Positions 35,799 to 40,099 of a DNA stretch of 42,716 bases are shown here, piece after piece. The DNA is from Campylobacterales bacterium. GTDB lineage: Bacteria; Campylobacterota; Campylobacteria; Campylobacterales; QNZT01. A program made the translations under genes and the position numbers. Every line of letters starts with the position of its first letter. Position 1 is the first letter of the stretch. The notes under the pieces were generated by a model. The model did not search any database, was not told the DNA's origin, and saw only the letters and a list, made by a program, of their open reading frames with translations. The stretch is taken from the NCBI GenBank assembly GCA_027066435.1, contig JAMONX010000058.1:1-42716 (forward strand), written 5' to 3'.

Positions 35799-35827
35799 TT
35801 GACATAAACACAAATACCCACTACAAT
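35799..35827 (+). promoter_or_regulatory. consensus sigma-70 promoter of the second MoxR/vWA operon
   Basis: TTGACA (35799-35804), exactly 17 bases, TACAAT (35822-35827). This is the best -35/-10 pair seen in the window. Transcription should begin at about 35833-35835, at the ATG itself, so the mRNA should have no leader. The 173-base region from the divergent hydrolase gene is otherwise very A/T-rich and holds no gene. Confidence 0.7.
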
Positions 35828-35833
35828 TTAAGA

Positions 35834-37195
35834 ATGATAAAAAACATAAACAAAGATTTTAAAAACTCAAAAAACAGATTAATCCTATTTTTAGGCAAAT
35901 TTCACTCTTTGACAAGAGAGGAGTTAGAGATATTTTTAGATAAATTTGAAATAACTTATACAGATACTTTAGATGCAAATGTACAAATGTTTATAGAAGC
36001 AACCATAATGTCTCCTCTTGAAGAGGAGATAGCTTATGAAGCTTTTAAAAGAGGGATACCCTCTTATTCAACCGACCAATTTGAAAAGCTTTATGCACAA
36101 AATCTAAACCATAACTCTATTTTGATGAGTTTAAAACTGTCAAATAACCAAGATAGACTATCTCGCCTTCTTCATAATGTACATCTAAATGATACACTTT
36201 TTTTAAAACTATTTAACATGTATGATTGGGGAGAGGAAGAACTTTTTGGAAGTAGCGAAAATATGGAGATTTCTACCCTCTTTGCTAAGAGATTTTATAA
36301 AAAAGAGAGATTTGACCCAGCCTCTTTTCACTCTCCTGTATCCATCTTTGAAATTGCTATTATCAATGAAAATGCAGAGGTTTTAGAAGCGATGTTTAAC
36401 TTACCAACACTTACCGTAAAACAAAGCCGTAGAGGGGAAAGAAGACCAGAAAACATCAAAGAGGCATTGGCTACAAACCCTCATATAAACTCAAGTACAT
36501 TAAAAAAATTGTTAAGGATTAACGACTCTGGGGTTGATTATTTTCTAGCACAAAATACTCTTATAGATGAAAAAACTGCTATCACTTTGATAGATAGGAA
36601 CAATGCTGAGACAAAAATGTCTCTTTCATTAAATGAAAATTTGACAGATTATGTTTTTGAAGAGCTTTTAAAAGATACTAAACTTTATGAAAATCTACTT
36701 TTTGCTCAAAAAATAAATATGGAGCGTTTTAGCAAAATAGATACCTTGCATCCTAATATAGGAGCAAATAAAAACTTAAGCAATGAAGTTATAGAGGTAC
36801 TAATAGAGAAAAAAGATATAAAAATTTTAAAAAATTTTAGTGCAAATGAATCGATAAATCAAGATTTTTTACAAAAGATATATAAATTACAAATTGAAGA
36901 ACTTTTTTCACTTTTAGCAACAAATAGACATCTCTCTCAAACAATCATAAAAGAGCTTTATAAAAAAAATGAAATAGAGATAGACAAAAGTATCGCAAAA
37001 AACCCAAATACGCCAACTGATATACTAGATGCACTATATAAAAGAGATATTTTTGAAATTAACAAATCTTTAGCATTAAATGAATCTCTTTCAATCTTAC
37101 ACTTGCAACAGTTACAACTTGACACTAGACTTTTGAACAATCTCAAAGAAAACAGAACTTTTACAGAAAATATATTAAACAATTTAGGTATATAA
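35834..37195 (+). CDS. BRCT-like plus leucine-rich-variant-like repeat protein
   Basis: A 453-residue soluble protein. Residues 14-88 look like a BRCT domain: a hydrophobic strand with Gly (LILFLGKF), a helix, then EEEIAYEAFKRGIPSYSTDQ, as in the K-x-x-x-A-x-x-x-G-I-P pattern of BRCT. Residues 211-453 contain about ten units of 20-26 residues of the form S/A-L/I-A-x-N-x-x-L-x-x-x-x-L-x-x-L, for example SIAKNPNTPTDILDALYKRD, which resemble LRV repeats. Both assignments are by eye. It starts the operon and is followed one base later by a MoxR-like ATPase, suggesting a substrate or adaptor role. No ribosome-binding site precedes the ATG; see the promoter entry. Confidence 0.7.
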   Translation: MIKNINKDFKNSKNRLILFLGKFHSLTREELEIFLDKFEITYTDTLDANVQMFIEATIMSPLEEEIAYEAFKRGIPSYSTDQFEKLYAQNLNHNSILMSLKLSNNQDRLSRLLHNVHLNDTLFLKLFNMYDWGEEELFGSSENMEISTLFAKRFYKKERFDPASFHSPVSIFEIAIINENAEVLEAMFNLPTLTVKQSRRGERRPENIKEALATNPHINSSTLKKLLRINDSGVDYFLAQNTLIDEKTAITLIDRNNAETKMSLSLNENLTDYVFEELLKDTKLYENLLFAQKINMERFSKIDTLHPNIGANKNLSNEVIEVLIEKKDIKILKNFSANESINQDFLQKIYKLQIEELFSLLATNRHLSQTIIKELYKKNEIEIDKSIAKNPNTPTDILDALYKRDIFEINKSLALNESLSILHLQQLQLDTRLLNNLKENRTFTENILNNLGI

Positions 37196-37196
37196 G

Positions 37197-38201
37197 ATGA
37201 AATTAACAGATATTTATAACACACTCGAACACTTTACAAAAGACAATATACCCCTATTTATCTGGGGTCCTCCAGGGATTGGAAAGTCCTCTGTTGTGAA
37301 GCAAATTGCAAATGACCATAAGTTACAATTTATAGATTTGCGGCTATCGCTACTTGACCCTACGGACTTAAAAGGAATTCCATTTTTTGACCAAAAAAAC
37401 AACCAAGCAGTATGGGCGGCTCCAAATTTTTTACCAAAAGATAAAAACTCTAGTGGAATTTTATTTTTAGATGAGATAAACACAGCTCCACCATCTGTTC
37501 AAGCCTCTGCATATCAGCTTATACTTGATAGAAAAGTTGGAGATTATCTGCTTCCTGATGGGTGGAGTATAGTTGCTGCGGGGAATCGTGAAAATGATCG
37601 TGGAGTTACATATAGGATGCCACCTCCTCTTGCTAACCGTTTTGTACATCTTGAAATGGAGGTTGATTTTGAGGATTGGAAGTTTTGGGCATATAAGAGT
37701 GGTGTAGATATATCTATTATCAGTTTTTTAAACTTTGACAAAGAGAAGCTTTTTGTATTTGATCCAAACAGCAATGAAAAAAGTTTTCCAACTCCTAGGT
37801 CTTGGGAATATGTAGATAAAATTTTAAAATCAAAACTAAGCCAAAAACTCCTACTTGAATCCATAAGCGGAACAGTAGGAAAAGATACAGCCATAGAGTT
37901 TATGAGTTTTAGAAAAGTTATGGATAGATTACCAGATATAAAAAAAATTGCAACAGGAGAGATAAAAAGGGTCAAAGATGATGACCACAAAATCCTTTTT
38001 GCACTCTCAAGTGGGCTAATAAATCATCTAAAGGAGTCTAATGAAAAAGAAAAAATCGAAAATGTTTTACTATTTTCTTTTGAACTCCCACCTGAGTTTT
38101 CTATCATGCTTATAAAAGATATGCAAAAAAATTCTATAAAAGTTGAAAATGCTCCCTCTTGGGATTTGTGGGTGCGAAAGTTTAGCTACCTACTCTCATG
38201 A
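37197..38201 (+). CDS. MoxR-like AAA+ ATPase (second system)
   Basis: A 334-residue AAA+ ATPase. Walker A GPPGIGKS is at residues 24-31, Walker B ILFLDEIN at about 88-95, sensor 1 is Asn130 in AAGNR, and the arginine finger lies in PLANRFVHLEM. It is clearly distinct from the Bat-operon MoxR in sequence. Such ATPases remodel or activate vWA partners; the next gene, overlapping by 4 bases, encodes one. The C-terminal 120 residues form the helical lid. Confidence 0.9.
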   Translation: MKLTDIYNTLEHFTKDNIPLFIWGPPGIGKSSVVKQIANDHKLQFIDLRLSLLDPTDLKGIPFFDQKNNQAVWAAPNFLPKDKNSSGILFLDEINTAPPSVQASAYQLILDRKVGDYLLPDGWSIVAAGNRENDRGVTYRMPPPLANRFVHLEMEVDFEDWKFWAYKSGVDISIISFLNFDKEKLFVFDPNSNEKSFPTPRSWEYVDKILKSKLSQKLLLESISGTVGKDTAIEFMSFRKVMDRLPDIKKIATGEIKRVKDDDHKILFALSSGLINHLKESNEKEKIENVLLFSFELPPEFSIMLIKDMQKNSIKVENAPSWDLWVRKFSYLLS

Positions 38202-39286
38202 ATAGTGAAAAAAAACTAGAAATTGCAAAAGCAAAGCTGATGTTAGAACATCCCTACTTTGGCTCCATAGCTTCATCTCTAAAAATCACTACAAATGAGA
38301 AAATAGAATCATTTCAAAGTGATGGAGAAAAATTTGAATACAACAACGAATATCTAGCAAACCTAAATGTCGATGAATTAGAGTTTGCCCTTGCCAACTC
38401 TGCTATGCACTTCGCACTTTCACACAAGGAGAGAACAAGTCAAAGAGAACAGTGGCTTTGGCAACTAGCTACAGACTACACCATAAACTCAATGCTTGTC
38501 AAAAACAATCTATTTCCACCTGAACGAATAAATCTTGACAAGAGATTTGATGGCTTGTATGCAGAGGAAGTTTATGCGATACTAGAGAGTGAAATCGATG
38601 AAAAAGATTATCAAGAAAGTGAGGAAAATAGAAAAGAGGGCAAAAAAGAGCAAGTAACCCCAAGCGAAAAAGAGAATAAAGATGAAGATTTTTTAAACCA
38701 AATCCATCAAAAAATGAAAAACCAAGGAGAACTCCCAAAAGAGCTAAAGAGAGTTTTCCCTGAACTTTTTACAGATGCGATAGATTGGAGAACTCAACTG
38801 TATAGATACTTAAATATACATGCAAAAGAAGATTATAAATTTTTCCCACCAAATAAAAAATATATCCATCAAGGAATCGCCCTCCCCTCGCTAAATAGCG
38901 AACTTTTAAAAATAGTTGTTGCCATAGATACCTCAGGTTCAATCGACACAAAACTTTTAGCCTCATTTTTCGCCCATTTTCAATCAATCTGTGATAGTTT
39001 TAACTCATACCAAATCGACTTAATCTCTTGCGATGCAAAGATACAAGAGCATAGAGTCTTTTATCCTGGAGACAGGATAGAGTATAAAACAGTTGGCGGT
39101 GGTGGAACTGATTTTCGTCCTGTTTTTGAGTATGTAGATAGATATATCTTTGATGCAAACATATTGATATACTTTACCGATGGGCTTGGTACTTTTCCAA
39201 AGACCACTCCATCTTATGATACACTTTGGGTGATGATGGCTAAAAATAATGTTCCATTTGGAGAGGTTTTAGAGATAACAAAATAG
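38198..39286 (+). CDS. DUF2201-like pseudo-metallopeptidase with vWA domain
   Basis: A 362-residue protein. The N-terminal half (about 1-130) resembles DUF2201/metallopeptidase-like proteins, normally with an HE-x-x-H-x-x-x-x-H site; here the aligned stretch is NSAMHFALSH (67-76), so the first His and the Glu are lost while His71, His76 and Asp94 (ATDYTIN) remain. A charged linker (135-165) leads to a vWA-like domain with MIDAS DTSGS at 244-248, GGGTDF at 301-306 and TDG at 327-329. The MoxR-like ATPase gene overlaps its start. The domain calls are by eye. Confidence 0.82.
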   Translation: MNSEKKLEIAKAKLMLEHPYFGSIASSLKITTNEKIESFQSDGEKFEYNNEYLANLNVDELEFALANSAMHFALSHKERTSQREQWLWQLATDYTINSMLVKNNLFPPERINLDKRFDGLYAEEVYAILESEIDEKDYQESEENRKEGKKEQVTPSEKENKDEDFLNQIHQKMKNQGELPKELKRVFPELFTDAIDWRTQLYRYLNIHAKEDYKFFPPNKKYIHQGIALPSLNSELLKIVVAIDTSGSIDTKLLASFFAHFQSICDSFNSYQIDLISCDAKIQEHRVFYPGDRIEYKTVGGGGTDFRPVFEYVDRYIFDANILIYFTDGLGTFPKTTPSYDTLWVMMAKNNVPFGEVLEITK

Positions 39287-39364: not shown

Positions 39365-40099
39365 ATGGGAAAAATCTTAACAATTTCTGTGCTTTTAGCA
39401 ACAACGCTATTAGCTTCTGGTGGTGCTAAAAGTTGGAGCTATGGAGGGTCTGAAGGACCTGAGTTTTGGGGAGATCTTGCAGACAATTATTCAATGTGTA
39501 AAGATGGAAAAAATCAATCTCCTGTTAACTTAACAGATTTTACAGATACGAAGATGGAGCCTTTGACCCTAAATTATAAAGCATTTGGAACTAATTTTAT
39601 CAACAATGGACATACTGTACAGGTAAATTTTACGAAAGGAAGTAACTTAACAGTAGACGGTAAGGAATTTGAGTTAAAACAATTTCATTTTCATACACCA
39701 AGTGAAAATCATATCGATGGTAAAAGTTACCCTATGGAAGCACATTTAGTCCATGCTAGCAAAGATGGTGCACTTGCAGTTGTATCTGTGATGATAAACG
39801 AGGGAAAAAGTAGTAATCCATTTTTCAATACACTAGTCTCAAAAATACCCAAAAAAGCAAAACAGAGCAATGATATAAAAGATGCAAAACTAAATGCTCA
39901 CGATATGCTTCCAGAAGATAAAGATTATTATCGTTTTAGTGGTTCACTGACAACTCCACCTTGCAGTGAAGGGGTTAGATGGCTTGTACTCAAAACACCT
40001 GTAGAAGCTTCAAAAGAAGAGTTAGAAGCATTTAGTACAGTTATGGGAGATAACAATCGCCCAATCCAACCAATACATGCTAGAGAAGTATTAGAATAA
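39365..40099 (+). CDS. alpha-type carbonic anhydrase, exported
   Basis: A 244-residue alpha-class carbonic anhydrase. A Sec signal (about residues 1-18, cut near ASG) is followed by WSYGGSEGPEFWGDL, zinc ligands His108 and His110 (QFHFHTPSEN) and His127 (EAHLVH), the proton-shuttle-position His83 (NNGHTVQV), and LTTPPCSEGVRW with the gate-keeping Thr. Cys45 and the Cys of TPPC form the usual disulfide. It interconverts CO2 and bicarbonate in the periplasm; in an autotroph it would help inorganic carbon supply. It is monocistronic, with AAAGGG before the ATG. Confidence 0.95.
   Translation: MGKILTISVLLATTLLASGGAKSWSYGGSEGPEFWGDLADNYSMCKDGKNQSPVNLTDFTDTKMEPLTLNYKAFGTNFINNGHTVQVNFTKGSNLTVDGKEFELKQFHFHTPSENHIDGKSYPMEAHLVHASKDGALAVVSVMINEGKSSNPFFNTLVSKIPKKAKQSNDIKDAKLNAHDMLPEDKDYYRFSGSLTTPPCSEGVRWLVLKTPVEASKEELEAFSTVMGDNNRPIQPIHAREVLE

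Follow-up and report, generated by a model that had tools for sequence, protein, structure and literature searches.

Layout and products of the locus

The 42,716-nucleotide (nt) Campylobacterota contig analyzed here, referred to as a whole as the window, is placed near Sulfurovum by its relatives, and it carries a cluster of three genes encoding a leucine-rich variant (LRV) repeat protein (the lead protein), a MoxR-type AAA+ ATPase, and a DUF2201-family protein with a von Willebrand factor A (vWA) domain. Coordinates are collected in Table 1. An earlier note, made from this DNA alone, had described three tightly packed genes, and the same-strand open reading frames confirm this arrangement, with a gap of 1 nt between the lead gene and the ATPase gene and an overlap of 4 nt between the ATPase and vWA genes.

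Table 1. Features of the trio and its upstream region (window positions; aa, amino acids; MIDAS, metal ion-dependent adhesion site).
Feature	Position	Strand	Remarks
Promoter-like site	35799..35827	+	TTGACA-17-TACAAT; -10 hexamer ends 6 nt ahead of the ATG at 35834
Lead gene	35834..37195	+	453 aa; BRCT-like N-domain, helical middle, ten LRV repeats
BRCT-like N-terminal domain (plausible)	35834..36103	+	aa 1-90; secondary-structure order of the model, weak similarity to the LigA BRCT profile
LRV solenoid	36455..37192	+	aa 208-453; ten units of ~26 aa; Foldseek match to 1lrv
MoxR-type AAA+ ATPase gene	37197..38201	+	334 aa; DUF2201-linked type
Walker A	37266..37292	+	GPPGIGKSS; glycines and lysine invariant in 18 sequences
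Walker B	37461..37475	+	LFLDE; invariant in 18 sequences
DUF2201 protein gene	38198..39286	+	362 aa; putative-metallopeptidase-like N-domain and vWA domain
Degenerate HExxHxxxxH site	38396..38425	+	NSAMHFALSH; HE replaced by NS
MIDAS (DxSxS) of the vWA domain	38927..38941	+	DTSGS; D244, S246 and S248 invariant, as are T304 and D328

The claim of about ten LRV-like repeats in the lead protein held up in its periodicity, its family matches and its predicted fold. Self-comparison of residues 196-445 gave peaks at lags of 26 and 52, with the lag-26 value reached by 0 of 500 shuffles, and the predicted helices accommodate ten units of 23-26 aa. Searched alone against Pfam, the window protein matched neither LRV nor any other repeat family; at the level of the family, 17 of 19 members matched LRV_2 and 11 matched LRV (PF01816/PF25591; best E 1e-12). 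The structure model (predicted local distance difference test score, pLDDT, 91.7) matched the Azotobacter LRV protein 1lrv in a Foldseek search with a probability of 1.00, a TM-score of 0.49 by target length and good geometry; ranking the same search by E-value placed eukaryotic armadillo proteins above 1lrv, with poor superposition. The Azotobacter protein carries an Fe-S cluster domain. The LRV repeat solenoid is common to both proteins, whereas the window protein has its BRCT-like domain in place of the cluster domain and contains no cysteine. Its relatives have 0-5 cysteines, none of them conserved, which ruled out an Fe-S cluster of the Azotobacter style.

For the N-terminal domain, the modeled order of secondary structure (beta-alpha-beta-beta-alpha-beta-alpha) is that of the BRCT topology, and profile alignment (hhalign) to the LigA BRCT domain kept register for 69 columns with a probability of 24%, compared with 0.1-1.3% for three controls. 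One of 25 N-domains matched Pfam BRCT (E 0.0065). The BRCT-like N-terminus named in the earlier note thus fits in topology and is weak in sequence, and we regard the assignment as plausible only. Sequence searches of the PDB with profiles of the lead protein, its N-domain and the vWA protein returned no relative.

The MoxR-type AAA+ identity of the second gene product was upheld by Pfam matches above cut-off (AAA_3/AAA_5) and by the retention of Walker A, Walker B, sensor 1 and the sensor 2 arginine in 18 compared sequences, in which G24, P26-S32, D92-E93, N130, R148 and R201 are invariant. Its match to bpMoxR reached 16.9 bits, far under the 27-bit cut-off. Midasins are its closest relatives in the PDB; the ATPase is distant from RavA and YehL, and close to phage and plasmid ATPases encoded with or near DUF2201 proteins. 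A Bat-type MoxR operon lies 4 kb upstream, and the two ATPases had been called unrelated in sequence; the ATPase-family profile scored 560 bits for the trio's ATPase and 22 bits for the Bat-type MoxR, and by this measure they are indeed unrelated beyond the AAA fold. TM0930 represents one of nine MoxR AAA+ subfamilies (PMC11432383), and the Thermotoga maritima genome matches DUF2201_N.

The third protein, described previously as a vWA protein, matched DUF2201_N (E 3.5e-33, 115.8 bits, cut-off 23.2) and DUF2201 (E 5.8e-23, 81.8 bits, cut-off 26.4), a family composed of PF13203 and PF09967, and its MIDAS is intact; overlooked at that time was its membership in DUF2201, whose N-domain Pfam labels a putative metallopeptidase. 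The vWA part of its structure model, which is of moderate quality (pLDDT 76.5), matched vWA domains including the MIDAS domain of human midasin. The first histidine and the glutamate of the HExxHxxxxH site are gone in every vWA protein seen of the Campylobacterota LRV clade, whereas the site is intact in Chloroflexota members, LRV trios included, and in most beta- and gammaproteobacterial, phage and plasmid members. Given the loss of this histidine and of the catalytic glutamate, an active peptidase in the Campylobacterota LRV clade was rejected, and because the loss extends throughout that clade, proteolysis is not the shared function of these trios.

Conservation of the trio and of its repeat-protein partner

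In a survey of 200 Campylobacterota genomes, the full-length lead gene was found in 21, with two more having short LRV matches, and DUF2201 was found in 27. DUF2201 was present in all 21 genomes with the full-length lead gene and in 6 of the 179 without it (Fisher p 2e-23, uncorrected for relatedness). Of 21 loci, the window counted, 19 have the lead gene 5' of the ATPase gene in the same orientation, 16 of these within 112 nt of it; in a second, partly overlapping set it lies upstream in 29/29 loci in which both genes were resolved, even where the locus has no vWA gene. The vWA partner near the ATPase is conserved in most relatives. Departures from this order include the insertion of one or two small genes (L034, L043), the order vWA-LRV-ATPase (L141), and a displaced vWA gene with the lead gene and ATPase still together (L039 and some Sulfurovum metagenome-assembled genomes). 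Taken together, these results show that the trio is a conserved unit and not a local accident, adjacency being usual in the phylum. Among its three products the lead protein diverges fastest, with 59% identity to the nearest relative compared with 79% and 69% for the other two.

The genes flanking the trio vary between genera, and among them we found no common neighbor as a candidate client. In one genus, an ankyrin-repeat protein is encoded just upstream of the lead gene (L035 9309-9803, L036 8571-9074 and L037 9218-9721).

A wider search made with the ATPase alignment returned relatives of which the best 80 span Proteobacteria, Firmicutes, an archaeon and Ktedonobacteria, and one Ktedonobacteria genome encodes a pure LRV protein directly upstream of the ATPase. 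Within that class, nearly all DUF2201 loci with the matching ATPase type and enough sequence have an LRV gene upstream. Further Chloroflexota, two Armatimonadota loci and a Thermus oshimai plasmid also have an LRV gene 5' of the ATPase-DUF2201 pair. Rare adjacency outside this genome, which would have spoken against a functional unit, is therefore not what we found; within Campylobacterota adjacency is the norm, and it is seen again in three further phyla. The occurrence of this trio in four or more bacterial phyla leads us to conclude that the LRV repeat protein very probably has a genuine part in the work of the machine. One Ktedonobacteria genome carries two copies of the entire trio, roughly 20 kb from each other (L208 and L234), and the second LRV gene has a TGA stop within the match.

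The solenoid beside the pair differs between groups, combining a BRCT-like domain with LRV repeats in Campylobacterota and consisting of plain LRV repeats in Chloroflexota, Armatimonadota and Thermus. In a third Campylobacterota group, a gene for a BspA-type leucine-rich repeat (LRR) protein immediately precedes a divergent ATPase-DUF2201 pair (L121 2918-5119, L122 7821-10019 and L123 3554-5686; LRR_5, E 9e-123 in L121), which suggests that a solenoid partner meets a recurring need.

In a quick tree built from 106 ATPase sequences, at least three changes of the LRV label are required, and the grouping of Campylobacterota (LRV clade plus type 2) with Chloroflexota was rejected by the approximately unbiased test (p-AU 8e-12), a value to be read with care since the tested group was named after the first tree was seen. 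Because the LRV-linked ATPases do not form one clade, the partnership either arose repeatedly or has been lost many times, and their non-monophyly fits repeated recruitment of LRV partners.

A candidate client adaptor and its rivals

MoxR-vWA machines of several kinds have been described, and the trio shares features with each. For NorQ/NorD it has been shown that the ring of the ATPase is plugged by its vWA partner and that both proteins are required if metal is to be inserted into the client (PMC9976466, PMC13036017). The trio resembles this system in combining a MoxR-type ATPase with a MIDAS-bearing vWA protein, such that ring-plus-vWA coupling is expected; NorQ/NorD, which inserts Fe into nitric oxide reductase, has no third repeat protein, whereas the trio has a vWA protein of the DUF2201 family and encodes no oxidoreductase client. 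Published conflict systems include four ternary MoxR-vWA types, along with two additional versions, and these typically have an effector C-terminal to the vWA domain (PMC7159879, PMC8195603). These also bring together MoxR, vWA and a third component (Kaur et al., 2020, PMC7159879), but their third component is VMAP, iSTAND, FtsH or a beta-propeller fused to vWA, none of which was found in Pfam scans of the trio proteins, and that of the trio is an LRV solenoid. The AAA+/DUF2201 (COG0714-COG3864) pairs of N4-like phages, jumbo phages and plasmids belong to the same families and are adjacent or near to each other; unlike the window protein, the phage members have an intact HExxH, and no relative of the lead protein was found in phages. 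The YehL/YehM/YehP/YehQ cluster of Escherichia coli likewise joins a MoxR ATPase and a vWA protein to extra large partners, but it has no LRV protein, and both YehL and YehP were missed by the trio family profiles at E 10. The earlier note named no described system with these three components, and we found no description of an LRV/MoxR/DUF2201 trio in the open literature, subscription papers lying outside the scope of the search; nor does the lead gene belong to any established MoxR system.

The sequences themselves establish the composition of the trio, its conservation and the status of its motifs. From these we infer a hexameric ATPase ring, its contacts with the vWA protein, and the role of the repeat protein. 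We consider it on balance probable, by a modest degree, that the operon encodes a MoxR-vWA remodeling machine with a dedicated LRV repeat-protein client adaptor. The vWA protein would sit on the ring and couple ATP hydrolysis to the client through its MIDAS, as proposed for NorQ/NorD, while the LRV solenoid, with the BRCT-like domain in Campylobacterota, would bind and present a specific client protein or complex, which would be remodeled and not degraded. Of the roles of adaptor, sensor or target once offered for the repeat protein, that of adaptor fits this scheme, and an invader-sensing or conflict role did not find support. Several observations weigh against the scheme. Pairs without an LRV neighbor are common (Campylobacterota type 2, the nif-linked type 3, Proteobacteria and phages), which places the LRV protein outside the core machine; two genomes, G047 and G177, carry the lead gene away from the ATPase-vWA pair; and ancestral presence of the LRV partner followed by many losses could equally account for the tree. 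The apparent split of the G177 ATPase is an assembly gap of N, which ruled out a pseudogene.

In the main competing explanation the LRV protein takes the place of the client: it is assembled or remodeled by the MoxR-vWA pair and does the real work, for example in scaffolding or sensing. Genes for MoxR-vWA pairs and for their clients often lie together, as with NorQD and NorBC (PMC9976466), the adjacency of LRV and ATPase genes in Sulfurovum loci is tighter than that of ATPase and vWA genes, and the lead protein evolves fastest of the three. It has, however, neither an enzymatic domain nor an evident metal-binding site, in keeping with the cysteine counts given above, and we judge a client role rather unlikely, though it merits serious weight. 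Far less credit is due to a regulated metalloprotease in which the DUF2201 N-domain would cut clients that the LRV protein brings and the ATPase unfolds; the Pfam label and the intact motif of members from phages, plasmids and the LRV trios of Chloroflexota speak for it, but the loss of the catalytic residues in the whole Campylobacterota LRV clade, the window (NSAMH) included, makes it highly improbable. Mere operon coincidence, with the LRV protein acting alone, could draw on G047, G177 and the abundance of LRV-free pairs, and yet it has to contend with the co-occurrence counts and with recurrence in four phyla under differing LRV architectures and gene contexts, and is the most improbable of the explanations considered here.

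A conflict or defense system, in which the LRV protein would sense an invader and the MoxR-vWA pair would trigger the response, had been among the options originally raised, and it accords with the prediction of such systems for MoxR-vWA sets with a variable third component (PMC7159879, PMC8195603) and with the patchy distribution of the full-length lead gene (21/200 genomes). No trio protein has an effector domain, and on the vWA protein in particular the Pfam scan found no C-terminal effector, the DUF2201 vWA domain ending at residue 360/362. PADLOC gave no match of weight for the lead or vWA protein. Applied to 124 neighbor proteins, drawn from the window and from the loci of 14 relatives (15 loci in all), it gave strong matches, among those listed, to one or two helicases (GajB/DRT-type), and the remainder were generic nuclease and helicase families. 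The neighbors are mostly signaling, transport and metabolism genes and not, as a rule, defense genes, and no homologue was seen in a defense island in these loci; with nothing systematic from either the trio or its neighbors, the defense-island reading was rejected. Furthermore, the third component is constant across the phylum and not swapped. A conflict or defense function is highly improbable.

The MoxR-DUF2201 pair may be a general remodeling engine with interchangeable solenoid receptors, the repeat protein picking the client by analogy with Clp protease adaptors, a reading which we put forward as tentative. MoxR-vWA pairs are widespread, and a recurring repeat component would be a direct handle on client choice. 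DUF2201 proteins, a set of bacterial LRV proteins and the ATPase-DUF2201 pairs of many phages would likewise be set in a functional context for the first time.

Promoter-like site and further ATPase-DUF2201 loci

The region given for the operon in the earlier note began at 35799, which is the first base of the promoter-like site and not the start codon. This site has 11/12 consensus bases and is the top of 17 sites in the region, where 18.1 sites of any kind are expected by chance; the nearest relative (L129) has an identical TTGACA-17-TACAAT ahead of its lead gene. Because the -10 hexamer ends so close to the ATG, a leaderless transcript or one with a very short leader is predicted as possible for the lead gene. 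No Shine-Dalgarno sequence lies between the -10 and the ATG (window 35799-35836); L129 instead has a leader with AAGGA. Directly 3' of the trio, the window encodes an alpha carbonic anhydrase (39365-40099), a gene of the same size follows the L129 trio, and a homologue lies near the L030 lead gene.

Additionally, Campylobacterota type 3 loci carry a paralogous ATPase-DUF2201 pair (L170 2355-6101, L172 7651-10119, L174, L178 and L184), located directly 3' of genes whose products were tested as NifQ in L172 and as an ODP/flavodoxin protein in L170, hinting at a role of this MoxR-vWA pair in the supply of nitrogenase metal cofactor. In Betaproteobacteria and kin, a conserved protein of 292-299 aa with no Pfam match is encoded upstream of the pair (L177 7026-7925, L183 7068-7949 and L198 7050-7928). 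Homologues of the ATPase were present in 772 of 50,697 phage records (e.g., L243, L244 and L245), and in an N4-like phage the ATPase gene overlaps a DUF2201 gene with an intact HExxH.

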